Source: Macrolepiota albuminosa (Eukaryota; Basidiomycota; Agaricomycetes; Agaricales; Agaricaceae). From it: 64,000 nt of DNA. The notes beneath the pieces were generated by a model. It saw only the letters and a list, made by a program, of their open reading frames with translations, ran no database searches and was not told the DNA's origin. Positions 1-60,800 of this stretch are shown one piece after another. The stretch is from assembly GCA_027475525.1 (NCBI GenBank), contig JAMWFC010000065.1, forward strand, positions 748,188 to 812,187, given 5' to 3'. The position numbers were made by a program, and so were the translations under genes. The stretch's first letter is position 1; every line of letters starts with the position of its first letter.

Positions 1-2655
1 GGGCGCCTTTTCGTTGTCCCCTAGAGAACGTTGGCACCGTTCGTTGGATTCCAGAATTGGGGTCGCTAATTGTTAAGGTCGTCTCGTTGTCGGTAACTGT
101 CTTGACGACTGATCGCGCCAAGACGTTGAAGGGTCTGCCAAGTAGCAGGTCATATGCTGGGGAACGTAAGATGTGTATCTGAAGATAAAACGTAATGTCG
201 CCAAGGGTGCACGGCACATTCTTGGCGAGTCCTAGGGATTGGTCTACTGTGCCGTTAGCACTCTGCATGTTTAGTATTACTGTAGGGTCATAAATTAGGC
301 CCAGATCGTTAGCGACTTTGGCTGCCATAGAAATGATCTGAGACCCGCTATCCACAATTGCCTCTACCTCGTACTTGTTGTCTACGGTTAGCGCGACTGA
401 GCGGATAGCGTGTGATTCTTGAGCGATGGTAAGGATTGCAGGGTCCTCTCCATGGTCCACTGACCTAAGGTAGGTCTCCACTGGGTCCACAGAGGTGGCG
501 TTAGCGATGGTGTCAGCAAGAGGTTCATCAGTGTCGGGAGAGTCGATGGTAACAGAGAAACCAGGAAGTGCATCGTCGAGTTCATCAACCTCGGCAACGG
601 CTGTCGCCAAGGGTCGTCGGGGAGTGACTGCCGTCTTGACTTGGTTGCGGACGTCGGGAGCAATACTACAAAGTTCTTCTACTGATAAGGTGACGGCGGT
701 TTTCATGATGCGGCTGAAGACGTGGTTGGATTTTTCTATGTCAAAAATTGGCGCAGTAGGTCGGTAGCCACCTTCAGGACGTTTCTTGGGAACGGCAAAA
801 TTTCGTTGTGCGGGAGCGTGATAACGGTCAGGAATCCCTGAATAAGGATGAAGAGGCGGCAAAGGCGGTTCGGGAGCGGTAGCGGACGACGATGGTTCTG
901 GAGTAGTGGCTGGCGTAGTGGCAGGTGGTGCGGCAGGAGCAGGAGTCGGTAACTTGCTAGCGGGAGGCATTGGCTTATATCCTTTGAGAGGCTGCTTAGG
1001 CTGCTTAACTTCAACCCCATCAAACACCTGATTCTTCAGTGAATCCAATTCCTGCTGTAACTTGGCGATACGCTCTTCCCGCGAGAAAGTAGGGCAGTCG
1101 CCAATGCTGTCGAAGTGTAAGACCTCGTGAATCATTTGCTGCTGAGTCGCCTGCTCAGGGTCAGGGTTGGCGTTGCCAGAAAGCGTGCCGGTAATGATTT
1201 GTCCTGGGTTGTGCCTATGCCATTCATCAACTCTCTCCTGGAAGGACTTCTTGTCCGGGTAGTTGGGGATGGTGGCGCCAGAGGTAAGAACTATCTTGCC
1301 GTTGATAGCCCTTCGACTTCTTCCTTGCCGAATATAATTCTCTAAAGTCGCGCAGCGTCCTCTAGTTATAGTATGGCCAATTTCCCCACAGAAGTGGCAA
1401 GGGCCAGGTGCGGGTACGTTAGCGGGTCGGTTAGCAGTGAGGTTGGTGGTGATCATGGTTTCAATACGCGTCATAGCGGAAGCGACAGCGGCGGTAATAG
1501 CAGCATTGAGCTCCTCTTTCTTAACGAAGTCGGTAGTAGGAGGCGGGATGGGAATAATACCGTTAGTTTGCTCAGGGGGTGGGCTCGTCCTAGCGCGTGA
1601 TATACCAACGCCAGTGTCTGTTCCCTTGAGAACCCATTTACCGGCTTCAAAGACGTCGGCAACGTTATAGGGCTCGTCAGGGTGATGGGCCTGATGAACT
1701 ATCTCTAGGCGACGAGCAATACGAGTCCAAAGCGAAGTTGGGATGCCTTGCTGGAATAGGCGACGTTCCTCGTTAATATAGAGCTTGCCGTTCTGCAGAA
1801 GCCACCTAGCGATTTTCTGGAACTCGCGGTAATACGTGGAGAATGCGCCAAGAGACGATGTGCCACTGTCGAATGATTCCTGAACTAATTTTTGCAACTC
1901 ATTTACCGTGTATCGGGTAGCTTCCTCTGCGCCAGGGTACAGCTGGATTACTGCCGTTTTCCAGTCCTCATACAAAGCTTTACCGTGTATCGGGTAGCTT
2001 CCTCTGCGCCAGGGTACAGCTGGATTACTGCCGTTTTCCAGTCCTCATACAAAGCGCCTTGGGCTGGGACGGGTGGGGCGGCAGGAACAAAGGCGGCAAA
2101 CTCGGTCAAACCTGTCCACGTCTCTGCCGTGTCATACGATACGTATCTTGCTGCGTACTCTTTCATCTGCGTGTGGTCGGTAATGTTACAATCCCTAAAC
2201 AAATACTCCAATTCCTTGAAATACTGGGAGAGCTCCCGTGGCTTGGACTCGTCCCATTTCGGTGCCGAGAAGTGGTTGCGTGGCGGCATGCGCTGGACTT
2301 GTTGTTCCATAGCGACTGTGTTGGCGAGTTTGGTTAGCGGTGGTGGGGAAGGAGTTCTAGAGGTTGGTGATGGGGTAAGAGAAATGACGAGTTGAGAAAG
2401 CGGTGTTAATGGAGTGAGGGGTGTGACTGGTTGTGGTATGGCAAGCAGCAACGCTAAGAGGTCGTCGGCGCTAAAGTCAAGAGAACGCAGGAAGAGATCA
2501 GGAAATGCGTCTACAGTGGTGTTCTGTAGTTCCTGTGCAAGAGAGAGACCCGGTAAGGCACCAGGTGGTTGTGGAGTTGATGGGTGGGAAGGAGCAATGC
2601 CTTCTGCTGACTGCTCTAGCAGACGGCACCTACGCTGGAGATGGGTTTCTGGCGG
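1..2655 (-). CDS. Ty3/Gypsy element B gag-protease ORF, partial
   Basis: Capsid-like gag followed by a retroviral aspartic protease; RT and integrase would lie left of the window. The gag core near 1950-2400 reads FSAPKWDESKPRELSQYFKE and later TWTGLTEFA, YEDWKTAVIQLYPG. A zinc knuckle lies at about 1354-1399 (CHFC, GEIGH, then C six residues later, so CX2CX4HX6C instead of the usual HX4C). The protease shows AIVDSGSQIIS at about 330-360 and LLLGRPFN at about 130-155. The frame is open from the left edge to 1904; a 77-bp tandem duplication then shifts it, and collapsing that repeat joins it to the gag frame that extends to about 2655. No ATG is visible at the expected start. Apart from the duplication it looks undamaged, hence fairly young. 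Assignment as Ty3/Gypsy rests on domain order, because RT is not in view. Confidence 0.8.
1904..2057. repeat. 77-bp tandem duplication (probable assembly overlap) in gag of element B
   Basis: TACCGTGTATCGGGTAGC begins at 1904 and again at 1981. Collapsing it joins the two gag half-frames. Confidence 0.9.
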
Positions 2656-2670
2656 AATTCTGCCCTAGAG

Positions 2671-2690
2671 ATCCCTCGCGGTGGGCTCCA
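2671..2690 (-). promoter_or_regulatory. Putative tRNA primer-binding site of element B
   Basis: On the minus strand, three bases inside the LTR end (2694), the sequence reads TGGAGCCCACCGCGAGGG. It starts with TGG, the complement of a tRNA CCA end, at the expected place for minus-strand priming. The tRNA was not identified. Confidence 0.55.
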
Positions 2691-2693
2691 ATT

Positions 2694-3644: not shown

Positions 3645-3645
3645 C

Positions 3646-4969
3646 GAGGGAACAGGGGTGGCCGCTCGGGGGAATTACCCGGAGGATGGGGGTTGAGGAG
3701 AGGGATTGGGTGGTGGAGCCGGAGGGGGAGCCACAGGCGGTGCCCATGGGGGGGTCAGGGGGGGGATCGGGGAGCGGGGGTGCCTCTCGAATGGGGGGCC
3801 GGGGCCAGCCTGTGGTCCTTATCATGCGCCGGGTGACTCGGGCCGGGGGGAGTTAGGAGGGGCGCGGCAGGCATCGCCAAGCCTGTCCCCCGGGCCTTCC
3901 AAGAGGGCGCGTCTGCCCTCTGAGACCCCATCTCCGGCCTCTCTAGCGCACGTTTCTCCGGCAGTGTTCTCCCCGCTGTCTGGGCGACCCTTGGGCGCTG
4001 AGGTGAGGGAGTTGCAAGCGTGTCTGGAGCGGGCCGACCAGGAGAGGGAGGAGCGGGAGGAGGCGGCGCTACAGCGGGGGCTGGAGGAGGATTGCAAGGC
4101 GGCCCTCTGGGAGTTGGAGGAGGCGAGGGTGGCGCGGGGGGAGGCCAAGGCCAGGCTGGAGCAGGGGGTAGGGCTTCCGGGGCAGGGCCCCCCAGGATTG
4201 GTCAAGGCCCTGCACCGAGACATAGTGATCGGGCGCATGGCCTCCCTAAGTGAGTACTCCCCTTCTTGTGGCTGGGCTGGTACTGATATCTCCAGGCTGG
4301 GCCCGGGAGCATCGCCTGCTCCTGGACGGAGTGGCTGCGGTGTTTGCCTCCCTGCAAGAGGGGCTGCAGTCCGAAGCGGGGAGCCCCGGGGTGGAGCAGG
4401 GTCTGGACCTGCTGGGGAGGCTGGTGACCGTGCACCACCGGAGGAACGTCCTGGCCCTGGGGTCATGGTTCGAGCGGGTCCTGGACGAGGGCGAGGCCAG
4501 GCTGGAGCAGGGGGTAGGGCTCCCGGGGCAGGGCCCCCCAGGATTGGTCGAGGCCCTGCACCGAGACGTAGTGATCAGGCGCATGGCCTCCCTAAGTGAG
4601 CTTCTCGTGGCTGGGCTGGTACTGATATCTCCAGGCTGGGCCCGGGAGCATCGCCTGCTCCTGGACGGAGTGGCCGCGGCGTTTGCCTCTCTGCAAGAAG
4701 GGCTGCAGTCCGAAGCGGGGAGCCCCGGGGTGGAGCGGGGTCTGGACCTGCTGGGGAGGCTGGTGACTGCGCACTGCCGGAGGAATGTCCTGGCCCCGGG
4801 GTCATGGTTTGAGCGGGTCCTGGACGAGGGCGAGCAGCTCCTGTCGTGGGACCAGCTGGCTGAGGAGGTGTGGCGGGAGCACGGCCCAGAGGGGGTGGGG
4901 AAGGGTTTCCGGGGCTGGCCGAGGGGAGGGGAGGGTGAGGGCGGTTCGGGGCCCCCGTTTTCTTCTTGA
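3646..4969 (+). CDS. GC-rich coiled-coil ORF, 5' truncated, three exons
   Basis: Function not recognised. The exons are (to 4249), 4296-4595 and 4635-4969. Removing 4250-4295 (GTGAGT...CTGAT...CCAG, 46 bp) joins frame 1 to frame 2 and gives MASL-S-WAREHRLLLDGV. The second intron (4596-4634, 39 bp) sits at the homologous place in the second internal repeat and is frame-neutral. The N-terminal part is Pro/Ser-rich with a KRAR basic patch (PSKRARLPSETPSP), followed by a heptad-like region (REEREEAALQRGLEEDCKAA is typical) and two copies of an RLLLDGVAA-type helical module. No ATG is in frame; a TGA at 3694 and the LTR of element B at 3644 suggest that the 5' end is lost. It converges on element A pol, so it may be an antisense accessory ORF of such elements; from memory, similar coiled-coil ORFs occur in other mushroom genomes, not checked. 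Confidence 0.5.
4149..4840 (+). repeat. 346-bp internal direct repeat
   Basis: GGCCAGGCTGGAGCAGGGGG begins at 4149 and at 4495, and the following ~340 bp is about 95% alike, including the intron and its splice sites. It doubles one exon-intron-exon module of the coiled-coil ORF. The copies differ in intron length (46 versus 39 bp), so this is a real duplication and not the 77-bp artefact. Confidence 0.85.
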
Positions 4970-5377: not shown

Positions 5378-5531
5378 GAATGTTCCGGGAGTCGAGGATG
5401 TCTTCAACCTCATAGTGGTACTCGTCCTCGACCTCGACCGGGGGAGGGGGCTCGGAATGTTCCGGGAGTCGAGGATGTCTTCAACCTCATAGTGGTACTC
5501 GTCCTCGACCTCGACCGGGGGAGGGGGCTCG
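5378..5531. repeat. 77-bp tandem duplication in the chromodomain of element A
   Basis: GAATGTTCCGGGAGTCGAGG begins at 5378 and 5455. Collapsing it restores a complete chromodomain ([13 protein letters not shown]). Confidence 0.92.
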
Positions 5532-8500
5532 GGGCGTCGTTCAGGGAAGGGGTCCGGGGGGTGCCGTTCCAGTAGGCGGACATGGAACACCGGGTGCAGA
5601 CCTTTCAGTCCTGGGGGAAGCTCGATCTTGTAGGCATGGGATGAGACCTTCTTCAAAATTTTGAACGGGCTGAGGCGCTTGTGATCGAGTTTTGGAGAGG
5701 GCCGGCGGGTGCGGAGGTGGCGTCGATCTAACCATACCTTTGTCCTGGGGGTCCAGTCGGGGGTGTCTTCCCGTTTCTGGTCGGCGTGTTTCGCATAGGC
5801 CTGATTCGCGGTGTTGATCTCTTCTCAGAGAAACTCATGAAGGGACTGGAGATCCCGGGCGACTTCGTGGGCGGCGTGTGATGGGATGTCCTGGAGCGAG
5901 AGTGTCAGTTGAGGGTGGTATTCCTTGTTGGCAAAGAAGGGGGACACCCCGGTGGCAGAGTGCAGCGTGTTGTTGTTGTAGGTGAACTCGGCCAGGAGGA
6001 GCTCGGCGCGCCAGTCGTCCTGCAAGTAGTTGACGTACAGTCAGAGGTACTGCTCGAGAGACTGGTTGACCCTTTCGGTTTGGCCGTCGGTTTCGGGGTG
6101 GTAGGCGGTAGAGAGGTTAGTCTTCACTTCAAGTGCCTTACACAGGGAAGTCCAAAACTTGGACACGAAGAGAGGGCCACGGTCGGAGACGATGTCGTCC
6201 GGGAGTCCATGTTTGGCGAAGACGTGCTCGAGGAACAGCCGGGCAAAGTCCGGGGCGGTATCCGTGGTGTGGCAGGGTAGGAAGATGCCCTGTTTGGTTA
6301 GCCTACACACAACAACGAGAATGGCATCGAACCCTTCAGATTCCGGGAGTTCGACGATGTGGTCCAGGGATATGGAGGACCAGGGGCATCGCCCGACCGG
6401 CAGGGGTTTCAGGAGTCCATACGGTCAGTGTCGGGGGACCTTGGCCCGGAGGCAGGGTTCGCATGATCGAATGTAGCGGGTCACGTCCTTCTTCAACCCT
6501 GGCCAAAAGTAAGTCTGGGAGATCAGCTGGAGAGTCTTACGTATTCCAGGGTGTCCCCGGAGCTTGTGATCGTGGTGTTGATGGAGGACGTCGTAGCAGA
6601 GTTGGGCGTGATCCGGGATGTAGATGCGGCCGTCCTGGAGGAGGAGTTTTTTGTTGGGGGACAAGGAAAAGGCGGGGTCCTGGTCGGTTCCGTCGGGAGG
6701 GCTGCGGGGGTCATGGTCGGTGAAGTACTTGTCTCGGGGGGCACGGCGGATCTGGCTCAGGGTCTCTTCGTCGTTTAAGATCAGTACAGCATTCAAATGT
6801 TCAGGAGGGATCACCACGCGATGATTGAACGCATTGCATTCCGCCTCAAACGACTTCTTGGGATAGACGTCCGGACCATGGGTGAGGGCATTGGGTTTAG
6901 CTCCGAGTCGTCCCGGGCAGTACTGGATCGTGAAGTCATATTCCGAGAGGACCTCGGACCATCGGGCCTGCCATCAACTAAGCTGTTTGGTCGTGGTGAA
7001 GTACTGCAGGTTGTTGTGATCCGAGTAGACCTGAATCCGGTGCCGGGCTCCCTCGAGGTAGGCTCACCATTGCTTGAAGGCTTCGACGATGGCGAGGAGC
7101 TCCTTGTTGTAGATGTCATAGTTGAGCTCGGCGTTGATCATGGACCAGGTGTAGAAGGCAACTGGCCGGGGCTCCCCTCCGTCAGGTTCCATCTGCGAGA
7201 GGATCCCGGCGATGGCGTAGTCAGAGGTGTCGCATTCCAGGATAATTGGGAGGGTCGGGTCATAATGCCGGAGCACGGGGGCGGTCGTGAAAGCCTCTTT
7301 GAGCAGGTTAAAGACACTCTGGCACTTACTGTCCCAGTTCCAGGCGACGTCCTTGCGCGTGAGCCGGTTGAGGGGTTTCGTGATACCGGAGTAGTTATCT
7401 ATGAACCTCTGGTAGAAGTTAGCGAAACCCAAGAAAGATTGTACTTCCTTGACGTTCCAGGGCTGCAGCCAGTTGACGATGGCCTTGACCTTGTGGGGGT
7501 CCATGCAAACGCCGTTCGGGGATACGATGACGCCAAGATACTCAACCTCTTCCATATGGAATAAACACTTCTCAGGCTTGGCGTGGAAGTTGTGCTCCCG
7601 GAGGCGTTCGAGGACTTGCCAGACATGCTTCTGGTGATCCTCTGGTGAGTCGGAATAAATGAGGATGTCATCCAGGTAGACGATCACGAAGATGTCGCTC
7701 ATGTCGTGGAAGATGTCATTCATGAAGTATTGGAACGTGGCGGGGGAGTTAGTCATTCCGAAAGGCATCACAAGGTACTCAAACAGACCATACCGCATGC
7801 GGAACACGGTTTTCCACTTGTGTCCCGGAGCGATGCGGACGTTGTTGTAACCAGAGTGGAGGTCAATCTTCGTGTAAACCTTGGCACTGTGGAGTCGATC
7901 GACCAGATTGCCAATGAGCGGGAGCGGGTAGCGGTTCTTTTTGGTGATCTTATTGAGTCCCCGGTAGTTGACACAGAGTCGGAGTGAGCCGTCCTTCTTC
8001 TTGGCGAATAGAACTGGGGCCCCGGCGGCGGAGGCAGAGGGTCGGATGAATCCCTTACCGAGCATTTCGTCGAGGTAGTCCTTGAGGGCCCAGAGTTCGA
8101 CCTCCGACATATTGTATATCTTGCCGAAAGGGGGGGTGGCTACTTCCTCGAGGTCGATGGTGTGATCATAGAGGCGGTGAGGGGGGATCTCCTTGGCGTC
8201 TTCTTCGGAGAATACATCAGCGAACTCATGATACTCTGGGGGAACTACTTCTCGGAGGATTTGCTCCTCGGTTTTCTTTTCCAGGGGAATAGCGTCCCCT
8301 CGTAGGTGTTCTTCTGGGAGAGAAGGCGAGGTGTGCAGCTGAAACATGGGAGTTCCATCCCTCATGAGGCGGGCGAAGGGGGCGGCCCCAATGATCCTAA
8401 TGTCGAGTGCGTTTGGGTCGATCGGGGTTGCAGGTACATTGGCCGGAGCAGGTGTGACGCATGTCTGAGACCAGCCATGGTAGTTCGGCCCTTTGTACTT

Positions 8501-9030: not shown

Positions 9031-9184
9031 GTGATGGGGGCCCGTCCTTTGGGGTAGGGTCCGGAGAGTGGGGGATGTCGAAGGGGAGTTGCTGGTCGTC
9101 GGGCGGGGTGATGGGGGCCCGTCCTTCGGAGTAGGGTCCGGAGAGTGGGGGATGTCGAAGGGAAGTTGCTGGTCGTCGGATGTC
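9031..9184. repeat. 77-bp tandem duplication, imperfect, between the two protease domains
   Basis: GTGATGGGGGCCCGTCCTT begins at 9031 and 9108. Unlike most of the others, the copies differ at several bases. Collapsing it puts protease 1 and protease 2 in one frame. Confidence 0.8.
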
Positions 9185-9749: not shown

Positions 9750-12425
9750 TCATTGGGGGCACTCGGGGATGAAATGGTCTTTCTCACCGCAGAGTATGCA
9801 CACGCCTTCCCTCCTTTGCTGTTCCTGCACATCCTTCGGGACTTCGATCCAGGGTCGTCCCTTCTTTTGAAGCTGGTTGGCTTGAAGGGCCTCCTCATCC
9901 CGTTTGTCGTTGAAGTCGAAGCCTTCGGGGTCTTCCGGGGGTTCCTCGGGGCTTGGCGTGTCGCCCGGGTCGTGGGCGGCCATGGCGGCGTTGAGTTGGG
10001 CCTGGGGGCGGATGCCGCTGCTGGGGTTAGCATTGGGCAGGCCGCGATTCACCGGGGGTCAGCTGCCAGGGAACGCGGGGGGACCGGGGTTTCGCCGGAG
10101 GGCCAAGAGGGTCCTCCCCTAGGGTTCCAGGGGGGTCAGGAGTTCGAGTACTCGCTGCGGTCTTCCCAGTAGCGTTGGTCGATCTGCATGACGAGGGCCT
10201 TGTATCCATTGTAGGAAGGTTGTTTCAGGGCGAGTCAGAGAACGTCCTTGATACATTGCGGCAGGGCACGGCAGAGGGCGTACCGGAGGGCGCTGTAGTT
10301 CTAGCCTGTCTCGTAAGCTTCCTTCTCAAAACGTACGATGAAGGTGGTGAAACGTTCTTCCGAGCGCATCTGGAGGTTGAAGAGGTTGTCCTCGGCCTCG
10401 GCCACGGTGTCGTAGATTTCGAACTTCCCGGAGAACTCGTCGACAAAGGCCTGCCAGTGGGAGAGTGCCGGGTTGTTGGGGTCGAACTGGATGAGCGCCG
10501 TGTAGTGGTCAAAGGCGATCCCCTGGAGGTACGAGGTGGCAAAGGCCACTCGGGAGCTGTCAACCTGGAACGTGAGTGGTTTCGCCTGAAACGTATTGAG
10601 ACACTAAGTGAGGAATGTATGCCATTTTCGGGGGTCCCGGCCCGTGAAAGCGTCGGGCTTTTGAATGTCCAGACGTCCTTCGCGGGCGAGGGTGTCGCAA
10701 GCGTTGTCCGGTCCGGCAGTGTTGCGGGGAGGAGGGCCGGCATTGTAGTAGTAGTAGTAATGATTACTCCCCCCTCCTTGTGGGGGAAAAGCACCGAGGG
10801 CAGGACCCCACCTGCCTGGAGGGCCTCCTCTGGGTGGCTCACCTGGAGGTCCGCGCCCAGGAGGTCCGTTGTCCCAGGGGGGTTCGTTCCTGCCAGGGGG
10901 AGGCCCGGGTCTCCACGCAGGGACTGGCAGAGGCAGGGGGCCTGGGAGTCGTCCTCGAGGTTCGGCCGGAGGTGGCGGAGGCGGTCGGAGAGGGTTCGGT
11001 GGTGTTGGGTCGATCTGAGGGGGGCTGGGTGCTGGGTCGGGTGCCGGGTTGCGTGGGGAACGTTCAACCCGGGAAGGTCGCGCTTGCATCGGAGGCCATG
11101 GGGGGTTCTGCAGATCGAAGTGGGGCGGGGGGTTGCGGCGGAAGTTGTGTTCCGGAGGGGCTGGGGCTGACGTAGGGGGCGGTACCGGAATGGGCACGGG
11201 CGTGGGACGTGGTTCGTTGTTGCCACGCATGAGCTCGTCGATGTAGCACAGCGTGTTGTCCGTGCTAGGGATGTCCGTGCGGGGTCTACCAGGGTTTGCC
11301 GGGGCCGGGGGTCAGGCATTGTCTGTTTGCGGGAGGGGTTCCAGGGGTCTTTGGGGCTGTCCCCAGGTCTTGAAGGTACTAGGAACGGAGTTAGCCCTGC
11401 GGCGAGTTGACAAGCCTACCGTGCGGGCAGCGGGTTGATCGAAGAGGCCTCTAGTCGGGTTGAGGGACCGCAATATGGCTGAGGTGTTTTGTCGCTCTTC
11501 CTGTTGTCGTTGTTCTGGAGTGGGGTCTGCAGGGGCTGTTGGGGCTGCCAGGGCCGACTCTGGGGGTTCCCGTTGAACGTGAATCGAGCGACCTGGGTCC
11601 GCGGGGTCGTTGAGGGGTCGAGAGGAGGGGGACGCGTGGACTTCGTCGAGCAGCTGTTGCAATTCTTTTCGGAGGATCGTATTGCGCCTATACTTTACCA
11701 TAGTTTGCTCTGGGAGTTCTCCTCGCATGAGGCGATCCCCGAACTCGACCAAGCAATGAGCCCATTCCTCCGGAGTGCCTTCGAAGTCGTCGTGCCCGAA
11801 TTCCGTTGCGCGAAGTCCTCCGGTGAGATCCTGAGTGAGCGGAGTACTTTGTCCTGTTGCCGTTCATACTCCTCGAGGCATCGTCGTCCCATTGGTGAGG
11901 GAGGGGTTTGAATGGGTGGAGTGGCGGCCGGGTAGTGACGAGGGGAGTAGTTGAGGTAGGGGGGTCCTTGGGGTTCTCGAGGTTGGGGAACGGGGCGCTG
12001 GTAGCCGTAGAAGGGGGTGGGTGCAAAGGGGCCCTCGCTGGGGGGGATCGGGCAAGGTCCACTGGGTACTGGTGGGGTCTCCGGCAGGCCCCCGGGGATG
12101 CTCCGGTACGAGGGGACCTCCACGGATCGTGCCATGGCTAAGTTGGGCGGAGGGGCCCAGCTGGCTGAGGGCCCCAGATCATAGAGAGATGGGTCGGGGG
12201 CCCTCGTGCCATGGCTAAGTTGGGCGGAGGGGCCCAGCTGGCTGAGGGCCCCAGATCATAGAGAGATGGGTCGGGGGCCCAGTGGCGGTGGAGATATGGA
12301 GGTTCGTACGGGAGGGGTGGATAGACGGGGCAGGGGGTCTGTGCAGAGTAATGCTCGGGTACCGGGCACCCATAGGGGTCGGTCTGGTAGCCCATGGGGT
12401 AGTAAGTGTGAGTATACGTAGCCAT
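9750..12425 (-). pseudogene. Element A gag, degenerate
   Basis: It begins at ATG 12425 (MATYTHTYYPMGYQTDPYG), with a Pro-rich N-terminus, then RATEFGHDDFEGTPEEWAH, a second Pro-rich stretch ending in GSNHYYYYYNAG, the gag core (FDHYTALIQFDPNNPALSHW) and a canonical CCHC zinc knuckle (CILCGEKDHFIPEC) just before the stop at 9750. Damage: a frame change near 11815, another between about 10050 and 10150, stops at 11312 (TGA), 10604 (TAG), 10301 (TAG), 10235 (TGA) and 10136 (TGA), and a 77-bp duplication at 12131. The role would be capsid and RNA packaging; it is not functional as assembled. Confidence 0.85.
12131..12284. repeat. 77-bp tandem duplication in gag of element A
   Basis: GCCATGGCTAAGTTGGGCGG begins at 12131 and 12208. 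Collapsing it joins the gag N-terminus to the next Pro-rich segment in frame. Confidence 0.92.
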
Positions 12426-12527: not shown

Positions 12528-12681
12528 GATACTCGGGTGTCTGGAACTCCAGGGCTAGGACTCCGGGGTTCAAGACGTGGACAGGGAAATCCTGGGAGAG
12601 GGGAGATACTCGGGTGTCTGGAACTCCAGGGCTAGGACTCCGGGGTTCAAGACGTGGACAGGGAAATCCTGGGAGAGGGGA
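12528..12681. repeat. 77-bp tandem duplication in LTR A1 (first)
   Basis: GATACTCGGGTGTCTGGAAC begins at 12528 and 12605; the solo LTRs of the same family have it once. Confidence 0.93.
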
Positions 12682-12710
12682 CTTAGTCTGGAGGTTTTTG
12701 GTGGTGGGTA

Positions 12711-12864
12711 ACTGGGGAGTTCGGGTGGGGGTCGAGTCGTGAACCGGAGGTTCTAAGACGAGACCAAGTTAGTAAGTTAAAGTCACAACTGGGGAGTTCG
12801 GGTGGGGGTCGAGTCGTGAACCGGAGGTTCTAAGACGAGACCAAGTTAGTAAGTTAAAGTCACA
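12711..12864. repeat. 77-bp tandem duplication in LTR A1 (second)
   Basis: ACTGGGGAGTTCGGGTGGGG begins at 12711 and 12788; the solo LTRs have this segment once. Confidence 0.93.
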
Positions 12865-13370
12865 AAGTGCGTACCAGTCTTAGAGCACACGAATATCCAA
12901 GCGTGCCAGTCAAGCGTGCCAGTCAATGCGTACCAGTCAAATAGAGGGCACGCAACAATCCAAGTAATGCAATGTAAACAGAGTAAGCAGTGTAATATCA
13001 AGACTACCGAATACAACAGGGGACTGTGCTATAAGTACTACAGGACTGGGTCTCAGGGCTCCGGGGTGTCTGGGATGGGTTCCGGGGGTCATTGAGTAGC
13101 GGCAGGGGCTGTATACCGGGATCCGGCGTGTGGGACGCACGATCAATTGGCACGGAGGAAGTTGTGATGCGTGATGCGTGATGGCTGGGAACGATTTGTG
13201 TGATCCAATCGTTGATCGGGGCTGGTGGCAGCTGATGGCGGTCCTTGATGCACGTGATGGCGGTGTCGGCGGTCGTGATGGCGGGGCGTGTCTTGTGGGG
13301 TCGGAGGGAGGGTCCTGGAGGGTGTTCTGGGGGTGTCTCAGGGTGGGCCCGGAGGGGAGGGGTCGTGACA

Positions 13371-18711: not shown

Positions 18712-18865
18712 GAGCTTGGCCAAGCTCTCCTTGCTACAGCGGCTGGAAATGCCGCACCAATCCGAGCCCAGCTTGGAAGAAGAGTCACGAGCTTGGCCAA
18801 GCTCTCCTTGCTACAGCGGCTGGAAATGCCGCACCAATCCGAGCCCAGCTTGGAAGAAGAGTCAC
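18712..18865. repeat. 77-bp tandem duplication in ORF3 of element C
   Basis: GAGCTTGGCCAAGCTCTCCT begins at 18712 and 18789. Collapsing it joins the two ORF3 frames. Confidence 0.93.
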
Positions 18866-20772
18866 GTCCTCGACGCGACAAAGGAAAAGCACGGGCTGTC
18901 GAGCCCACTCACAACCAGGACTTAGTCCTGGCTACCCTTCTCCAACGTCTGGGAGATAACAGGTACGATGTATCCGCAGAGTCATCATTCCTCCACGATG
19001 CGGAGGCAGTCGTCCTCATCTGCCGGATGATGGACAACATGGATCATATGTGCGCTCAGTGCAAAACGGATCTCCTTGCCCTATCAGCCGCTCGTAAGCG
19101 GCAAACTACACCCCCGAGTCGGGACACCGACTCCAGCAAAAGGGCGCGTTGGCAAGGAGTGGAGGACGCGCCCTCCCACTCGATTAAGTCGAGCATTGCT
19201 GCCCCTGGCTGGGAGGCCAGCCTAGGACAGGACATCCTCCCCTATGAAGATGTTCCTGCTCCAGCCGCTTCCCAGCTTATCCAGTGCCTCGCAAGCGGTG
19301 CGTCTGAGGTCGCATCTTCGCAACCAGTATCCGTGGTTTCCACCACGTACTCTGGGGAGCAGAGTTCCAGGGGTGTGAGCACACGCCCCACCAAGGCTAA
19401 GGCCTCACTACCCCGAAAGAATCGTCGGGGTAAGCAACCGGAAGGGCACGCCTACGTCAACGTGCACTTCCCCGAGGATGCCCCGAAAGAGGCCCCAGGG
19501 GCTAACATCCCCTTTTTACCCGCTATACTGGTAGAGGGCCCACCAGCCCGACTCCCGCAGTGTGTGTGGGCAATGGACCCATGGTCTGAGAAGTCAGAGC
19601 TGGAGAGGCTGCCATCTCCGCCCTCCGACAACGATTGGTATGAGGAGCCTGAAGAGGCTCGCATGGAATCCCCTGTGCCGCACGACATGGTGGCACAACG
19701 TATGGCGTGTGAACGGTGCAACAGCAATTGACAGGCCAAGATGGAACGTCGGGCGCAGGATAGCGCCAAGCAAGGAGCTGCCCTCCTCGAGGACCAAACC
19801 GGGCGCATCCCTGATGCACTCGGTGTTGTGATCTATTGTGATCACACTATTGAGCGCCAGAACTCATTCTTTGGCGCAGGGTTAGCTCCCCAATTTTATT
19901 GGTCGCCGGTGACCAATACCATCTTCGTCGGGCAAGAAGCCCGCGCAGCCAGGTCCTTCAAGGCCGATAAAGAGGGCAACGCCGTGGCAACGCCCCACAA
20001 CAGTAAGGTGTACCAAGTAGCACCTCGCGGGTTTCCCCGCAGTCCTCGAGAAGTCTGCAGACTTCATGCACTGGTTAACAACCAGTTTACGCCGCTTCAT
20101 CAGCGTCAGTTGGGCTACCTCTTGCTCAACGAATTCAAGCGGGTGGCGCTCAACTGCCACCCTACGGCCCAAGACAGAGCTATGTCTCATTTACTCGACG
20201 AGGTCGAGTATAGGACTATCGTGGTACCCTTCGTGAGTCCAGAGGAGCGGGAGAACGTCCCGCAAATAATTGTGCCGTCGCGGCTCTATCGCCGCAATGA
20301 TCCAAAGCAACCATTTGCTTTGGACTACCTGGGCTCATACGCCCTCCTCTATGGACGTCCGGGAACGTCCAACGTATGGACCAGTCTGGCCATGGACCGA
20401 GCCATGCGCATTCATTGGCGCAGCCTCTTTGGGTTTGCACTTGTACGTGCCCTCAGCGCCAGCCGCCCCTTCAAGGCCACGGTACACAAGTACCTGGCCT
20501 ACGTCTTTGCCAGGCCAGGCCTCTACAAAGAGGCCGTGGCTGAGTACGAGGCGGCCACAGGGCAAGTCTTTGAGCCCCTCCACGCCGACGACCCTACCTT
20601 CGAGGTTTGGGCTGTGGACATCCTGGAAGCGTCAGCTTCCGTGTTCACCACTTCGGACGCGTTACGCGTCCTTCTTCACAATCAAATTCTGGTCAGCTGG
20701 GCTGACCATGCGTATACTTATGGGGTCACCTACTTGGCCCATCTATTCTTCAGCGACAGCCGGCTCTACAAC

Positions 20773-33264: not shown

Positions 33265-33268
33265 CCAT
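33115..33268. repeat. 77-bp tandem duplication in the 3' LTR of element C
   Basis: GTCAATAGACCGGACTGGTC begins at 33115 and 33192. Confidence 0.93.
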
Positions 33269-41930: not shown

Positions 41931-41939
41931 TATTAGTAA

Positions 41940-42020
41940 TGAACCTATGGTGCAATGGTTAAATATGTGTTCCGTTGCTGGAGGCTTCTCCAAGACTAGG
42001 GGTTTGATTCCTCCCATAGA
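41940..42020 (+). repeat. tRNA-like sequence (SINE head or tRNA relic)
   Basis: CTATGGTGCAATGGTTA (A-box-like) and GGGGTTTGATTCCTCCC (B-box-like T arm), with an outer stem CTATGG/CCATAG and a GGAG-GCTT-CTCC hairpin where class II tRNAs have a long variable arm. The anticodon arm is not well paired, so I do not call a tRNA gene. Confidence 0.5.
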
Positions 42021-43080
42021 CATAAGGGAAATCAGAATTGCCTTTTTTTTTTTTGGTCCAACCAGCTTCCATGGACCTGCGTAGGCCTCTGTAGATGTCT
42101 GCTGGTGCCCTGCACAGGCCTGCATGAGCCTGCGCAGGTTTGAGTCTATCAACATATATCTGTGTGGATGTCCGCTGGTGGCTTGCATAGGTTTGCAGGG
42201 CCCTTTTATGGATGTATGCTGGTGTTGAGAGTGGAAAAAAAAGGGAAGGGAAGGTGCACAGCCTTGAGTTATGCGGGGAAGAAGGGAGAGGGGAGAAAAG
42301 TGGGGAACTGCAAGGAGGGTTTATTCATGCCATAACATCCGCCAATAGAGGAGGTTTTTACTCATGGGCTGATGCCTGCTGGCATCTGCCAGGCCTGCGT
42401 GCATATGTGTATGCCCACTTTTTATTGATTCACTGGACTGTATCATACAGCACATTGTAGCACATCTATGGCTCTATATTCTACAGCACTGTGGGCACTG
42501 CTCCACTCTAGTATAGCGGACTCTGCTGAATATGTATGGTACAGCACAAAGTGAGCTCCCATACAATGTATGACACATACCATTGTGATGTCTTTATTTG
42601 AAGAGAAAAGAAGGATCTATTAATGGGATCGTGCTAAATAGAGCAGAAGCAAATAGGAAAGTGGCAATCAAAAACATCTGGATGAATGGTAGAACAAGAA
42701 ACTGAATGGTGGCACTGAAACAGGCCTCTCAAAAGAGAAATTGGACTATCAAATATGTTCTGGAGGCTGGAGAGTTTACAGCAAAGAGTCATGTGTAGCT
42801 AGTAGTTTGTGCATCAGAAAAACAGTATAATAGCCCAAGTTTAGTAGAGAATAAATAGGCAATTAATAGGCAAAGGCTTGGTGATTCTCAGGGAGTGAAT
42901 CACTTAGGCTGGAGTTTGTTGAAAACCCTCTGCATCTCAGAATCTTTGATATTCTATGAAGCACTCAAAACTTTCAATACATCACTTTATTGTCAAAAAA
43001 CAGTGTAGATTAGAGAAGACTTTTTAGGACCACCTATAAGCTTCAGAACTATTAGTACTACTTGCAACCAAGTACTACAC
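42021..43080. other. No gene seen
   Basis: AG-rich patch at 42230-42300, otherwise AT-rich; the ORFs are below 90 codons. Confidence 0.5.
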
Positions 43081-43084
43081 TGGG

Positions 43085-43625
43085 AAAATAATATCCATAA
43101 GATAGTGTCTTCATCAATTACAGGAACATACATCAGCAATATCATGCAAATTGAAGACTGCAATGCCCCAACTACATTCCAGAGGTTGATGACCTCTATA
43201 TTTCACAACATAATTGGATGGTTTGTTTATATATATTTAGACAATATCTTTGTCTTTTCAAATACCATTGAGGACCATGAGCCACATCTTTGAGTAATCT
43301 TTAAATGTTTGAGGTTGAATCTGCTGTACCTCAAATAAAAGAAATGCAAGCTCTATTTTGAGACAATCAATTGCCTTGGATATAAAATTGATAGTCAGGA
43401 TATTTATTCTGACAAGGACATACATGGAAATAGAGAGTGCTCCAAATATATAATGACATTCAGAGATTTGTAGGCTTAATGAACTATATAGGCAACTGTT
43501 TGCCTGACATAACAACCACTTACACTGGGCCACTAATGTCTATCATGCAGAATGGGGCACCATTTATATGGTGGCCCATTTACTAGCAATGCTTTGAGAT
43601 GAGAAAACACATCTGCTCTAATTTA
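43085..43625 (+). pseudogene. Relic of C/D-lineage reverse transcriptase (copy F)
   Basis: TYISNIMQIEDCNAPTTFQR, then IYLDNIFVFSNTIEDHEPHL (catalytic YLDD changed to YLDN) and pieces of the following connection domain (DIQRFVGLMNYIGNCLPDI, MQNGAPFIWWPIY). Many stops. The match ends at CFEMRKHIC, after which ORF3-like sequence follows directly, so RNase H and integrase are deleted. Confidence 0.8.
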
Positions 43626-43639
43626 ATAGAGATAGGCAA

Positions 43640-45490
43640 AGCAACCCCTCTCTCTGGAGAGCAGGGTGAGGAGGATATGATGGTGGATGACAAGGACCAG
43701 AGATTAATTTTCTCAATGCATGCACCCAGCAAGGCAAATCTGCAGAGCAAGCTGAAAAGGGTCTTGCAGGCAGCAACAATGCTGTTCCAAGCTGAGGTGC
43801 CAAAAAGATCAGGAGCTGGAGAGATAGTGTTTTTTCTGCCTGTGGTAAACTTTGAGGTATTGCAAGAGTCTTACATCCTGGAGCTACTTCATTGGGACAT
43901 GCATACAAACAATAAAGTGGAAAATCACCTCTCTTTACTAGCATTGATAGGCATTATCAATGATGGTAATGCCATTAATTATAGTTCAAGTACAAAGGAC
44001 ACCCTTCAGAAGGAGAGATGGTGGCACAGAAAAATTTGCAGTTGAATTGCAACTATAAAGCAGCTGCTCAAAGTAAGGCCACTGCAGACAAGCAGGCCAT
44101 GGGGCATATCCCTCAGGAGTTGGAAGTTTTTAGAAAAGGAAACACCATTAAGTGTTCTAATTGGTTTTTTGGTGGTGTGCTTGAGCACTACTTTTATTAT
44201 TCATAGTTGTCAAATACTGTGTTTATAGGAGATGAGACACTGTGGGCCAAGAAGCAGGAAGAGGAGCAGGAAACAAGATATTAGCATACCTCAATTTTGT
44301 TAACAAAAACTATGCTATGGGGGTTTCCTATAAATCCCCAAGAAGCCTGCAAGCTGTTAGTGCTTGTAGGGCATAAGATGAAGGCATTGGCACTTTGTAT
44401 TAAAGCCCATTATCTTCTTTGTAAATTTCAGTGCATTTTGTTCAATTATAGTCAACTATAGAGGAACTGCACAATAGAGTTGGTGTGCAGTTCTGAATTT
44501 GAGCAGATTTTTCCTTCCCTTGATCTTGACAACTGATGAATGGATCTGGCCATCATGTCCACTTCCAAGGGGTATCTCTAACAGAAAGAGCAGAGAAGCA
44601 AATCCATATTTACACTTGCTGGATTTAATTTAGAAGATATCTGACATACCTTTTAACTTAATTGCCTAGCACAGAACATGCTTTATTTTTTGTGACCAGG
44701 CATGATAAATGCTGTTTTAGGCATTGCCATAGATTATGTATTCTGCATTCACTACTGTACCTTGCTGAGGCACACTATTATGCAAGGTGTATCATCTCAA
44801 GGATGTTTCAGAAGCTGCTTTGCCAGAGTACTGGCTTTCATCATAGCTCATCTGGAAATGTACCAAGAGGCTATTGAAGCCTATAATATAGCCAACCCTA
44901 GCCAGTCATTTTTGCCAATGTCATAGACAGATGTACAGTTCATGATCCCCCATTTTGATAATTCTATGTCAGCCAACATCAGTGATGCTAACATATTGAG
45001 GGTTCTTCTAGCAAATGATGTGCCAGCCAAATGCATAGACCATGCATACACCTTCAGTGTGGTCTATCTGAAAAGCCACTTTCAAGCAACTAATGCCTCA
45101 CTAGATGTGTACTGCAATATTGATAACAAATGATACTATAGACTAGATATCTATGGTGAACTGCTTGCAATTTCACAATAGAACAGGTGGAGAACCTCTA
45201 CCATAGACAATGTGATACATGTTCAGGCATTGCTTGCACAAGAATTTGCTCAAGGTTATTTATATCTTGAGGATAGATTTTACTACTTTATTGGAATGGA
45301 GCCATGCCATCACAATTTATGGATGCACAGCCCACACCAAAGGCCCTTACCACCACCATCTGTAGTTATTATGACTACAGAAGACCAGGGAGATAACTTG
45401 CCTCTTGAAAGAACATCAACATTGGCTAACACTGACATTGATATGGCTGCCTTTCTCAAAAGCGAGCTACACTGTCCTCTGTCTGCATAA
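43640..45490 (+). pseudogene. Relic of C/D-lineage ORF3 (copy F)
   Basis: SNWFFGGVLEHYFYYS then LSNTVFIGDE match FFGAGLAPQFYWSPVTNTIF of element C; LRVLLANDVPAKCIDHAYTF matches LRVLLHNRIPLEWVDHAYTY of element D; FYYFIGMEP matches LYYLIGMDP. Frames are broken and the base composition has drifted to AT-rich, so it is much older than C or D. It is the third independent occurrence of ORF3 in the window. Confidence 0.75.
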
Positions 45491-45627
45491 ACATAGCAAG
45501 CATTTACTTTCAGTTACTATTGGCTAACATTGACACTTAACCATCTACAGAAAATGGCTTGTCATAAGAGTGTGGACCCTCAATGTGCTCTTTTTTTAGA
45601 GACTGTACTCAGTCTGAAAGGGGGATA

Positions 45628-45854
45628 TGTAACTGAGTCACCTAGAGCATCTGCTCTAGATTCAATCATTGTTATATTTTTGCACAACCCACTGGTTGTG
45701 CCATATTATTATGCCACTGAACAACCTTCTAGTAATTCAGTCAGTTTATTGCATAAAACATGGTAGTAATAACTATAATTTTACATTAATTAAATTACAT
45801 AATATACTACCTAGTACCATGCCACTACCTTACTTAAGGTAGCTTTTTGTTACA
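45628..45854 (+). repeat. Probable 3' LTR of copy F
   Basis: GAAAGGGGGATA purine tract, then TGTAACTGAGTCACC, resembling the start of the element D LTR (TGTAACGGAGTCATCC), ending TTTTTGTTACA. Confidence 0.55.
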
Positions 45855-45924
45855 TTACTTGTAGAACTGAATCATATATCAATCTGGTTCTGTGGTATGA
45901 CTGTAAGCTACTGACATTGTTTCA

Positions 45925-46031
45925 TAAGTCAAGAACTAGAGATTCTAAGACAAGACTGGGGTTAACAAACTTAAAGTGGCAAAATGCATGCCAGTCTCAG
46001 AGTACACATGCCAGTCAAATCAGAGGGCATG
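45925..46031 (-). repeat. Decayed family-A LTR, left fragment (outer layer of nest)
   Basis: ATTCTAAGACAAGACTGGGG ... GCATGCCAGTCTCAGAGTAC matches the middle of LTR A1 with many transitions. It is cut at 46031 by the family-B LTR relic. Confidence 0.6.
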
Positions 46032-46736
46032 CTGATGACACATAAAAGTTGATCAGTAGCAGACACAGTTTATAGCTACTAACTGGGAAATATGCATTGA
46101 GCATGCTAAGTGTTTGAGGGAGTCCTAGACAGGTCCCAGAGAACAAGTCTAAATAAGTTGAATGGCAAGATTTGGTGGAAGTTGAAAAGGGAAGTTGGTA
46201 AGCAATGTGCAGTAAGCAATGTGCAGTAAGAAAAGTGCACCAATGACAAAGCACATCTAAATGAAAAAGAAGAGCAGATATAAGTAAGGTGCAGCAAGAA
46301 GCATGGCAAGAAAACTAGAGGCTTAGCAATAACTAAGCTGTGATGCCTGCTGTAGGTGCAAAGCACATAGATTCCATAGGCATAACTGCAGCAAGCAGGC
46401 TAGAGGTGTTTAGACAATTGGTGACTTTGAACTTAGTCAGTGCAAAAGAAATCTGAACTAGACTGCAGCAAGCAGGCTAGAGGTGTTTAGACAATTGGTG
46501 ACTTTGAACTTAGTCAGTGCAAAAGAAATCTGAACTAGAGGGTAAACTGAGAGAGGTAACAGGGTACTTTGTTCTGTTTTGTAACTAGTGACAATAGTAA
46601 GTATTTATAGCAAAAATAAGTTTATCATTGCTAAGTGGCTAAGGGTTGCCAAGAAGTGGTGAACTATAAGTAAATGCCATGCATTAAACTCAATAGTAAG
46701 AAATGAACAAAAATGCTATCCATCTGACTGAGGGAG
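46032..46736 (-). repeat. Decayed family-B LTR, left part (middle layer of nest)
   Basis: Starts with TGATGAC like the LTR of element B and shares GAGTCCTAGACAGGTCCCAG with its GAGTCCCGGGCAGGTCCCAG. Interrupted at 46736 by a young solo LTR. Confidence 0.65.
46385..46538. repeat. 77-bp tandem duplication in the family-B LTR relic
   Basis: ACTGCAGCAAGCAGGCTAGA begins at 46385 and 46462. Confidence 0.93.
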
Positions 46737-49307: not shown

Positions 49308-50272
<965 letters not shown>

Positions 50273-55422: not shown

Positions 55423-55576
55423 CAGCGGACTATGTGTGGGAAAAATGTCTTCGATTTTTGCCGTCATGTGACTGTGTTTGTTCTCGTTGCCATTTGCCAC
55501 AGCGGACTATGTGTGGGAAAAATGTCTTCGATTTTTGCCGTCATGTGACTGTGTTTGTTCTCGTTGCCATTTGCCA
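55423..55576. repeat. 77-bp tandem duplication before the minisatellite
   Basis: CAGCGGACTATGTGTGGGAA begins at 55423 and 55500; exact copies. Confidence 0.9.
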
Positions 55577-55593: not shown

Positions 55594-56680
55594 GCGTGGG
55601 AATAATGTCTTCGATTTTTAATGTCATGTGATACTACCATTCGTCTGTACGGTTACAGAAATGCGTGGGAATAATGTCTTCGATTTTTAACGTCATGTGA
55701 TACTACCGTTTCTGTACGGTTACAGAGATGCGTGGGAATAATGTCTTTGATTTTTAACGTCATGTGATACTACCTGTCACGACCCCTCCCCTCCAGAACC
55801 TCCCCGGGACATCCCCGGAGCCCCATCCGGGGACCCCTCTCATCGACCCCACAGCACGCCCCGCCCCCACAGCTGCCGACGCCGCCATCACACGCATCAA
55901 GGACCGCCATCAGCCATCAATGATCGCCATCAGCCAGCCCCCCCAGGACCCCTGCATCAACCGCCATCAACGATCAGATCACGCGGCTCGCATCCGGCCA
56001 TCACGCATCACGCCCCACGCATCACGACTCCCTCCGCGCCAATTGATCGCGCGTCCCCACACGCGCAATCCCGGTACACAGTCCCTGACCGCTACTCAAT
56101 GACCCCCGGAACTCATCCCAGACACCCCAGAATCCCGAGACACGATCCGTAGTACTTATAGTATAGCTCCCCGTTGTATTTGCTAGTCTTGATATTGCAT
56201 ACACTGTTACTTTGGATATTGCGTGCCCTCTGCTTGACTGGTACGCCTTGTTTGGTACGCTTCGACTGGCACGCCTTAGTATTCGCGTGCTCTAAGCTTT
56301 GGTACGCACTTCGCGACCCTTAAGTTACTAACTTGGTCTCGTCTTAGAACCTCCGGTTCACGACTCGACCCCCCCTAACTCCAGTTACCTCCAACCCAAA
56401 ACCTCCGGACTCTAGTCCCCTATCCCGGGATTACCCCTGTCCCTGTCTTGAACCCCAGAGCCCTAGCCTCGGAGTTCCAGACACCCGAGTATTCGTAGGT
56501 CAAGTCTGCATCGTAAGGGCGTTGCTTTCCCGGAAGGCCCCCGACTCAGCGGAACCTGACACTACCGTTCGTCTGTACGGTTACTTAGTCAGCAGTAGAC
56601 CATGTACGCGTGGGAGTAATGTCTTCATTTTTTAACGTCATGTGATACTACCGTAAGTCTGTACGCACTGCTGGCACTGG
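55594..56680. repeat. Minisatellite with ~68-bp units, interrupted by a solo LTR
   Basis: GCGTGGGAATAATGTCTTCG begins at 55594, 55663 and about 55729 (spacings 69 and 66-67 bp), with inner GTCATGTGATACTACC and TCTGTACGGTTACAG. A further unit (GCGTGGGAGTAATGTCTTCA) follows at about 56610, after the solo LTR. Confidence 0.8.
55775..56561 (+). mobile_element. Solo LTR of family A (copy A3)
   Basis: 787 bp, TGTCACGACCCCTCC ... GGAACCTGACA, flanked by CTACC on both sides (55770-55774 and 56562-56566). Inserted inside the minisatellite in the opposite orientation to A2. It keeps the TATA region and AGTCTTGATATT. Confidence 0.93.
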
Positions 56681-56713: not shown

Positions 56714-56813
56714 NNNNNNNNNNNNNNNNNNNNNNNNNNNNNNNNNNNNNNNNNNNNNNNNNNNNNNNNNNNNNNNNNNNNNNNNNNNNNNNNNNNNNNN
56801 NNNNNNNNNNNNN
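56714..56813. other. Assembly gap, 100 N
   Basis: Exactly 100 undetermined bases; a round size suggests a gap of unknown length. Confidence 0.98.
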
Positions 56814-57276
56814 GGCCTCACCGGTGATGCTTTATCAGCCAAGACTACGGATGAACTTAAAGGCCTTGCAATGCAACATTGGATGTCTAACGGAAAGGCT
56901 CTGCGTATTGGTCATTCTACATACCCCAAGAATACATTCGGCGATCTGGATTTGTATCCGCAAATGTTTCCTTGGCTGTTCCCCTATGGTCTAGGTGGCA
57001 TAGGCGGTAACAAGTGCAGCGTATCAGTGCGTATCCGCAAATGTTTCCTTGGCTGTTCCCCTATGGTCTAGGTGGCATAGGCGGTAACAAGTGCAGCGTA
57101 TCAGTGCGCACGCATAAAGCCAATTTGCTTATGTATCATGATAAACGCTTTCAAACAGATACTGGATTCCCATTCGCTGCCTTCAGCCATGAACAGGTAA
57201 AGGCTGCTACTAGTGGAGGCTATCTAGCAACCACCTGTGGCTACCGCTTATCGGGCCTAATTAGGCATGGAATATA
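56814..57276 (+). pseudogene. Helitron helicase-like N-terminal domain, fragment
   Basis: The frame emerges from the gap as GLTGDALSAKTTDELKGLAM, then LYPQMFPWLFPYGLGGIGG, LLMYHDKRFQTDTGFPFAAF and SHEQVKAATSGGYLA, in the order of the Helitron_like_N domain of fungal Helitrons (rolling-circle Rep/helicase proteins). It ends at TAA after HGI, without the Rep HUH motif or helicase. A 77-bp duplication at 56954 shifts the frame; collapsing it restores it. The 5' part is lost in the gap. Confidence 0.8.
56954..57107. repeat. 77-bp tandem duplication in the Helitron fragment
   Basis: GTATCCGCAAATGTTTCCTT begins at 56954 and 57031. Confidence 0.93.
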
Positions 57277-57740: not shown

Positions 57741-57800
57741 GTATTACTAGTATCAACTGATAATATATAATACTTTACAGTTGAAAAGAAAAGCTCTGAA

Positions 57801-60800
57801 CTAAAGATCGGAAGAGATTTGAATAACCTTGTTCACATCTTCTGCTAGCTGAGCATCATCGTCGTCATCACTGCTATCCTCCTCCTCATTACTTTCCACC
57901 TCTTTTGTATCATCTTTGGCCTTTTCCTCAATATCATGAGTGCCATCTTTGTCCACATCCATTGCGTTTATACTAAATTCACAATTAGCTCTGATACCTG
58001 GAATGATAGATCCTGTGAAATCTGGAAAAGTGGCAAGCTTGCGAAGACGGCGCATGTGAAGCTTGTTGAACTGATAAAGACGTTCACGACGCAGATGAAG
58101 TTGATGAGCAAGTACACTATCTTTAGCAGCAGTAACTTCCTCCCTTTCTTTCAGATACATTTCTTCATCATGCATGTAGGTGACAAGTCGCTGAATTTCA
58201 ATGTTGAGCCGATTAATTTCTTCATGGGCTCGCTCGATTTTAAAGTATTTGTCCATCATTATGCGAGCAGCAGGTGTGGCCCAAGCACGTTCACGTACAT
58301 CTTCCCGTGTATCGGATAATAGATCAAAGTCCGCAAGAAAAGCGTACTCCACAACAAGGTCCCATGAAAGCTCGGGACGTGGTGTGTATCGGATAATAGA
58401 TCAAAGTCCGCAAGAAAAGCGTACTCCACAACAAGGTCCCATGAAAGCTCGGGACGTGGTGGAGAAAGAGCACGAGCAGCTATGTTGTACATGTCAAGCG
58501 CATTTCGTATAGCCTGTGATCGAGCCTTAAGAGCAGTACCAATGTGTTTTCGTAACTTGTATCCTATTTTATATTAATGTTAGTTACTGTAATGTAAATT
58601 GTAAAAACCTCAAACATACCCAACTGTGACATATTCATCTTCGTCAATTCAAACATCCTCGACACAACCAATGCCTCTAAATTATCGAGACATCGCTGAT
58701 AACGACGTTTGGCTGACATCTCAGCAGCATTCCTCCACTCAGAGCATATTCGAGTCCACCGTGTCGTAATGCCCAGTTTTAATTCAAGGCCTTGAACAAT
58801 CTTGAGGTCTTTTTCATGCGTTTCAAGAGCATGTCGACGTTGAGTCTCTATAGACCATGTATAGTCTCGTGTATTGTGCGTCTCTGGTGTGATAACAAGC
58901 CACTTCGATTGCGCTTCATCCAGCTTTTTCTGGCTAGCCTCCAAGTTCACCAACTTCTGGTAATACTCCATCTGCAATGTTTCTTTGATCGGCTCCCGAG
59001 ATAATCCCTCAAGATACGCCTTTTCCTCCACTAGCCATTGCTTGAATGTATCAAAACTTTCAATACCTTGATCTCGCATCTGCTTCTCTAATGCCGATTG
59101 ACCATTGATCAGCTTCAATGCTTGTTTGTAGTTATTAATGAGAAAAGTACCTGAAGTTATATAAATCGGAGAAGAGAGTAAACAAAAAGAGAACGTACTA
59201 AGATTTTGATAAGTATCCTGTCTATCCATATGCTTCACATATTCCTGTATGCTCTGTTTTCGGTGAAAAATACTTGCATATCGCACTGACGGCGCAAGAG
59301 CATTGGATTTGGAAAAGAAACGTTCACATCCTTCGAGGTCTTCAAGCCCAAGACCTTCGACATACTTCGCGAGGAATGCAAGTTGACAACGTCGGTTATG
59401 AGCATGTCCATGAAAGCTTCCAACGAGTGACTTGTATTGAAGTTCAGATGCACGAGATCCAAGGGGGCTTTTAGCAAGTGTTGTGCCAAATTTACATCCA
59501 ATATCGTAGCCACCACCAATTCGCATGCCAAAGACATCTAAAAGTTCATTAACCATAGCCAAAGGGTATTTGGCACTTTAACAAAACTTCAAATAAGTAA
59601 AATAATGGAGAAGAGTCACGTATACTCACAGTTCACCACTCTGAACCATATCAGCAATGAGAAGAACAAAGCCATGACGGCAGAGAACTAAGAAGATGCC
59701 AGTCTCATCAAAAATTCCCCACATGCGCGCAGTTAGCTCATCAATCATATTTTTCCATCGTTCTCCGCAAGGATTTGATTCTGATCCTGTTGTGCCTTCA
59801 TCCTGTATTGAATAGTGAGTATAATATAAACATGAAAAGGTAAATGACTTACCGCACTATTCCCTGTTGGCAACATCTCTTGAAGGATGCCTTTAGACCA
59901 TTCATCTACTATCTCCCTACTCAGATAATAATCTCCATCTATCACACGATTATCCCACAACTCCTTTGATGCTCCAGCTGTTAATTCCCCATTTTCATCT
60001 TCAGTAGCTGGCCCTCGACGAATAACACGCTTCAGTGAATCATTTCCATCCATTGTTATCAAAATATCAAAGATCAACGGTTTTTCGCCCTTTAGCTTGT
60101 AAGTACATGCAGGACATGCATGGCGGAGCCTCCACTTGGGTGTATTCCGTTCAAGAGCAGCTTGGACACGTTTCTCTGTTTCTTCACGAATTGACAAGTA
60201 AACATCATATGCAATTGAGAATTGTTTACTGAGATATGGTTTAAATGGAGCGCCATGTAAGTCGCATAAGCTTTTGACAAATGGTTGAATAGTCAGATGA
60301 GGGCATCGAAGATGAGCGGTGCGATATAATTCAATAGCTCGTATGGCAAACGCAATGTCGGGATGATATGGAGCTGCAGGGATGAGGCCGCGTTCAATCA
60401 GAGAGGCAGCAATTGTCTCGCTTCCCTGAAGCATGGGTACATCTAGAGGATAAGTTTCTGACAGACATCAGAAGGTTATAACCATATATAAAGAGTGTAT
60501 AACTCACCAAATAAGTCAACAACCTGAATAACCCGTGTCTCCTGAATTACTGCACTTTCACTCAAGGGAGCTGCAAGCGCCTCTCCTGACACTCCGCATG
60601 CTTTACTCCATCTCAAATATGCATCAACCATCGCATTCAATTGAGTGGTAAACCCAAGGTTTCGACGGATAATCACATCCCGACGGGCACGGTAGTCTTT
60701 TTGTCTTCTTCGTGGCCGTAGCTCCTCTTCAAGAAGCTCTTGAAATTCTCCACCCGCATGACTCAGATTGATTGAGTCCTGGCCATTCATGACAGCGTCG

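Follow-up and report, generated by a model that had tools for sequence, protein, structure and literature searches.

Tandem duplications of exactly 77 bp in a Macrolepiota albuminosa genome assembly point to k-mer overlaps left untrimmed between contigs

The window considered here is a stretch of 64,000 nucleotides of contig JAMWFC010000065.1 (positions 748,188 to 812,187, forward strand) in the Macrolepiota albuminosa assembly GCA_027475525.1, and the feature that recurs along it is a head-to-tail duplication with a period of exactly 77 bp. A scan of periods 40 to 150 at an identity of at least 90% retrieves 16 such duplications, as had been claimed in a first-pass annotation made from the letters of the window; every site named there was found, with some of the starts shifted by 1 to 5 bases. 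Fourteen of the 16 are perfect over 77 bases. These lie, with both copies included and no strand assigned, at 1902-2055, 12127-12280, 12528-12681, 21128-21281, 24010-24163, 33114-33267, 40036-40189, and 55423-55576 (the last adjoining a 67-bp minisatellite); at 5378-5532, 18712-18866, 46385-46539, 56954-57108, and 58307-58461, where the exact match runs to 78 bases; and at 12710-12865, where it runs to 79. The two duplications that the first-pass annotation had singled out as mismatched (there at 9031 and 28281) are indeed imperfect: the pair at 9026-9179 matches in 73 of 77 positions, with four mismatches, and the pair at 28280-28433 in 76 of 77, with one mismatch. We refer to the sites below by their first base. 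Their sequence context is varied, with several sites in or next to open frames of long terminal repeat (LTR) elements, one near a KDZ frame, one at the minisatellite, and the others in repeats that lack long frames. Site 18712, for example, falls within an open frame that has no Pfam match of its own and an LTR-element pol frame upstream, site 28280 falls where a long frame of pol type (reverse transcriptase, RNase H, and integrase) begins, and site 58307 has a frame for a KDZ transposase (Pfam PF18758) close by.

Apart from these 16, the scan of the window returned one tandem pair, of period 67, which belongs to the minisatellite. Tandem repeats with periods of 339, 97, and 67 at 4141-4834, 40429-40619, and 55594-55774, respectively, are ordinary and unrelated to the 77-bp feature.

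To place the window in the context of the assembly as a whole, which comprises 100,137,612 bases in 129 contigs, we scanned 20 further stretches of 10 kb each (200 kb from 14 contigs) over the same periods and at the same identity; these were picked via pattern matches and round numbers and are a nonrandom sample. They hold 28 duplications at period 77 and none at periods 70 to 76 and 78 to 84. The comparison of period 77 with periods 70 to 84 that the first-pass annotation had proposed for the whole assembly thus comes out, on these 200 kb, in favor of a true excess, and chance as the origin of the duplications is rejected on the same counts. The remaining periods between 40 and 150 contribute two pairs at 61, one at 42, and one at 122; a perfect 61-bp tandem array of ≈13 units was also observed at L008:450-1225 (G000:C11:100450 onwards). 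Window and sample together (264 kb) give 44 duplications at period 77 versus five at all other periods in the range (67, 42, 61, 61, and 122), with none at the neighboring periods. Those in the sample are found in 11 of the 20 stretches and in eight of the 14 contigs; the two stretches that adjoin the window account for 10 of the 28, which leaves a density of 18 in 180 kb for the remainder. Mismatched duplications are a minority everywhere, with two of 16 in the window and two of 28 in the sample (4/44 in total).

A cellular process whose product is always a tandem duplication of 77 bp, such as break fill-in with nicks a fixed distance apart, would also produce a period that is constant at the 16 window sites and the 28 sampled sites, and copies that are mostly identical, as expected for recent events. 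Not one base of slack around 77 is seen in 44 events, however, and this, with the position of the unit ends described below, makes such a process highly improbable.

The lengths of the exact matches follow a simple rule. If two contigs that share exactly 77 bases are written one after the other, the result is an exact match of 77, which is longer where the flanking bases happen to agree. Among the 41 exact runs of at least 70 bases, 24 are 77 bases long, 12 are 78, two are 79, and one each is 80, 81, and 74; an exact 77-mer with chance extension predicts 22.5, 11.2, 4.2, and 1.4 runs for lengths 77 to 80, respectively. The lengths are those expected of copies that are identical over exactly 77 bases and longer by chance only.

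Further insight comes from sibling copies of the same sequences elsewhere in the genome. Own-genome searches covered 13 of the 16 sites (all but 5378, 21128, and 24010), with the best 40 candidates scored in most searches, and other copies were found for all 13. The sites thus lie in multicopy sequence, an observation that carries little weight because there is no matched control stretch and the window is rich in transposons. What the siblings look like at the duplicated position is more informative. At 58307, all four fetched siblings are single, and among the 32 candidates, all of which were scored, the window copy alone aligns to the whole duplicated query. At 46385, a sibling on contig C77 is single, and among the best 40 of 433 candidates none besides the window copy spans the whole duplicated query in its alignment. 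Outside the window, the unit of 33114 is present without mismatch at a single locus of the genome, where it is not duplicated, and at 40036, for which the query took in no more than the final part of the second unit and the flank to its right, the two siblings that were read are both single. Other sites are mixed. Site 1902 has 490 candidate copies (best 40 scored), and its nine fetched siblings comprise six that are single and three that have a duplication of their own at another offset; the eight at 56954 divide into six single and two with their own duplication at other offsets, and the five at 28280 into three and two in the same way. The one sibling fetched for 55423 has a 45-base run of period 77 near its own end. 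At 12127, each of the four fetched siblings carries its own duplication, 1 to 24 bases away from that of the window.

The two sites with the most duplicated siblings are 9026 and 18712. All 15 siblings fetched for 9026 have a period-77 duplication, which in 14 of them includes an exact run of 77 or 78 bases; one copy (L092) has two such runs, and the resulting 15 exact runs have 14 distinct starts, with a longest exact match of 66 in the remaining copy (L087). An ancestral 84-bp in-frame repeat at this site, suggested by matches 360 to 364 bases long, was considered and rejected, as the copies have a period of 77, in part with an additional 9-base insertion, and the period of 77 is kept in the copies that carry this insertion. 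At 18712, four of 20 fetched copies have one unit and 16 have a period-77 duplication, the exact match of which starts at offsets that range from 65 to 131; nine of these 16 contain an exact run of 77 to 80 bases, with six distinct starts. Within each copy the units match one another, and the copies themselves differ mutually by several percent.

These patterns bear directly on the possibility that the duplications arose long ago within transposon subfamilies and have spread through transposition. Consistent with such an origin, some copies have an offset in common, an identical unit is present in L037 and L039, and numerous copies at several loci can be aligned with the entire duplicated query without a large gap. 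Two things account for the gap-free alignments: duplications that nearly coincide can still be aligned, and only the best 40 of 377 to 1871 candidates were scored at these loci. An identical unit in two copies is also expected from a shared graph vertex. A heritable repeat would keep its place, and a break in an assembly graph would move with the differences between copies. On reading the copies, the offsets mostly differ (14 distinct starts among 15 runs at 9026 and six among nine at 18712), and the two units of a given copy agree with each other while the copies differ. A few copies do share the position of the duplication, but we reject inheritance within subfamilies as the source, at odds that we place at about one in a hundred or, in plain words, very remote.

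If the units derive from a de Bruijn graph, their ends should also be meaningful: contigs of such a graph end at the k-mer at which copies diverge, so that a differing base should directly precede the first base of a unit or directly follow its last. We examined this at 12 sites with siblings fetched for the purpose, few of the many siblings having been read. The nearest sibling differs at the base that adjoins the unit at seven of 12 sites, compared with one to four of 12 (mean 1.7) at distances of 2 to 20 bases; any fetched sibling differs there at nine of 12 sites, compared with three to seven. The nearest siblings at 12127, 12528, and 12710 have 77-bp duplications of their own, and in a strict form limited to duplication-free siblings the difference is found at four of eight sites, compared with zero to three. 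At 46385, the sibling on C77 is identical across the unit and 60 flanking bases on each side, except for the base directly before the unit. The nearest sibling of 58307 likewise carries the unit unchanged, with a difference at the preceding base, and at 33114 divergence from the other copy sets in with the very next base after the unit. At 1902, the preceding base differs in eight of nine fetched siblings, as it does in four of four at 12127 and in two of four at 12528; the base that follows the unit differs in three of four at 12710 and in two of eight at 56954.

Window positions 40136-46639 and G000:C77:147634-154062 give matches at 97 to 100% that are ≈6.15 kb apart in both; C77 may thus be collinear with the window there, as the other haplotype or a segmental duplication.

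A cellular process with a fixed step of 77 bp gives little reason to expect unit ends at differences between repeat copies, yet they coincide at seven of 12 sites versus a mean of 1.7. One might still imagine a mechanism of repair or transposition in this fungus that copies exactly 77 bp at a time and takes its cue from mismatched repeat copies (heteroduplex ends), so that units begin or end at the diverging bases, but we regard this as extremely improbable.

We conclude that the duplications are an assembly artefact, with a probability of roughly 0.97: a 77-mer common to two de Bruijn graph contigs has been written twice, the overlap having been left untrimmed. This estimate rests on the fixed period, its presence in most of the sampled contigs, the length distribution of the exact matches, siblings in which the unit is single or the duplication sits at another position, and the excess of unit ends at bases where copies diverge. 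The first-pass annotation had arrived at the same interpretation, and it is strengthened by the copies of exact length k and by a placement that disregards the kind of sequence. In the scenario we propose, short reads would have been assembled as a de Bruijn graph, in which contigs have a 77-base k-mer in common at branches; the branches would be the points where repeat copies, or two haplotypes, begin or cease to be identical. Some joining step would later have placed the contigs end to end, with the shared 77-mer retained on both, and so have created the tandem copy. We infer both the graph parameter and the joining step; a k of 77 is a common final setting for short reads. Among the papers listed in our literature searches, none names this assembly or, as judged from titles and the beginnings of abstracts, gives an account of k-length tandem duplications inside scaffolds.

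A variant of this explanation, with odds that overlap with its own, is that 77 corresponds to k-1 of another assembler setting, or that gap filling rather than contig joining introduced the second copy. The overlap between contigs equals k in some assemblers and k-1 in others, and runs of 100 and 763 N in the assembly indicate that gap-handling steps may have been run. The run of 100 N in the window (56714-56813, no strand assigned), which we read as a scaffold gap, has no 12-mer in common between the 400 bases on either side, and gap filling finds no support in this one N run of the window; we consider the variant possible but doubtful. The run of 763 N, at L009:6358-7120 (G000:C1), is unlike that in the window and could represent either a gap of estimated size or sequence that was withheld.

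Several observations weigh against untrimmed k-mer overlaps as the source. Nine of the 20 sampled stretches lack any period-77 duplication. The copies at 18712 share offsets in part, with three at 72 and two at 99, and one (L029) has the window's own offset of 101, but with a different unit; furthermore, seven of the 16 duplicated copies at this site lack an exact run of 77, and L057 and L059 also have one offset in common. Some units occur once and with equal flanks in other copies, so that not every passage through such a k-mer can have been duplicated. At five of the 12 sites (28280, 18712, 40036, 56954, and 55423), the boundary base is the same in the nearest sibling fetched, and the strict form of the comparison is positive at only half of its eight sites. 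Finally, the imperfect minority of duplications is not expected from a bare overlap; our guess is that the few mismatches stem from later polishing or from the joining of a near-identical repeat copy.

Since 77 is not a multiple of three, a duplication of this length inside coding sequence shifts the frame. The first-pass annotation had claimed that collapsing the duplications restores the reading frame wherever they lie in one, and this is only partly borne out. We compared frames by coordinates only, with open frames of at least 150 codons required on both sides. The long frames that flank 1902, 9026, and 18712 are offset by 77 modulo 3 (9026 is flanked by other pairs of frames as well), in agreement with the claim. 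At 5378 and 24010, one frame passes straight through the duplication, and at the other 11 sites no pair of frames of at least 150 codons flanks it. The feature is a computing artefact of little biological interest and a practical warning for those who annotate this assembly: spurious frame shifts can give intact genes and transposons the look of pseudogenes, and tandem-repeat statistics and transposon comparisons would be distorted too. If the sampled density of 18 in 180 kb holds, the 100.1-Mb assembly would contain spurious 77-bp insertions in a number of the order of 10,000, or ≈0.8 Mb, a total that is rough because the stretches are nonrandom.

Two further features were observed in the window and the genome. 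A host gene lies amid the transposons of the window, at 49311-49994 on the minus strand, and is represented by an exon for a GH11 xylanase that includes a cellulose-binding domain of fungal type (CBM1). With a protein of Termitomyces sp. T159_Od127 the exon product shares 91% identity over 86% of its length, and with a protein of Termitomyces sp. 'cryptogamus' 89% over 61%, so that the source fungus is probably a Termitomyces. In addition, the genome searches returned pairs of equal-scoring matches at a constant distance within a contig (105,808 in C65, 228,712 in C59, and 556,397 in C81), with pairs seen once in C26 (67,597), C27 (174,194), and C114 (351,482). Such pairs hint at extensive, nearly identical duplications that run in the same direction and may be haplotypes placed in tandem.

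The 77-bp duplications can be compared with several known products of assembly. False duplications are usually long and variable in length, whereas those described here are all 77 bp. The two are alike in that haplotypic and similar false duplications (on which see PMC7203741) are spurious additional copies that arise through imperfect merging. The scaffolder RegScaf includes a step that aligns and merges overlapping neighbor contigs (PMC9326850), and background on hybrid assembly errors is offered by another report (PMC9635638). Overlap merging of the RegScaf type is the kind of step that is seemingly absent here, and there is no known link of RegScaf to the present assembly. The nearest parallel is with the k-mer overlaps of SPAdes contigs, where k is said to have been 127 in the study concerned. 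There, contigs assembled under the default set of k values overlapped by 127 bp at their ends, and taking this overlap out closed them; as in our case, a fixed number of bases is common to contig ends (PMC6232296). In the M. albuminosa assembly, by contrast, the number is 77, and the overlap has been left in place, many times over, inside long contigs.

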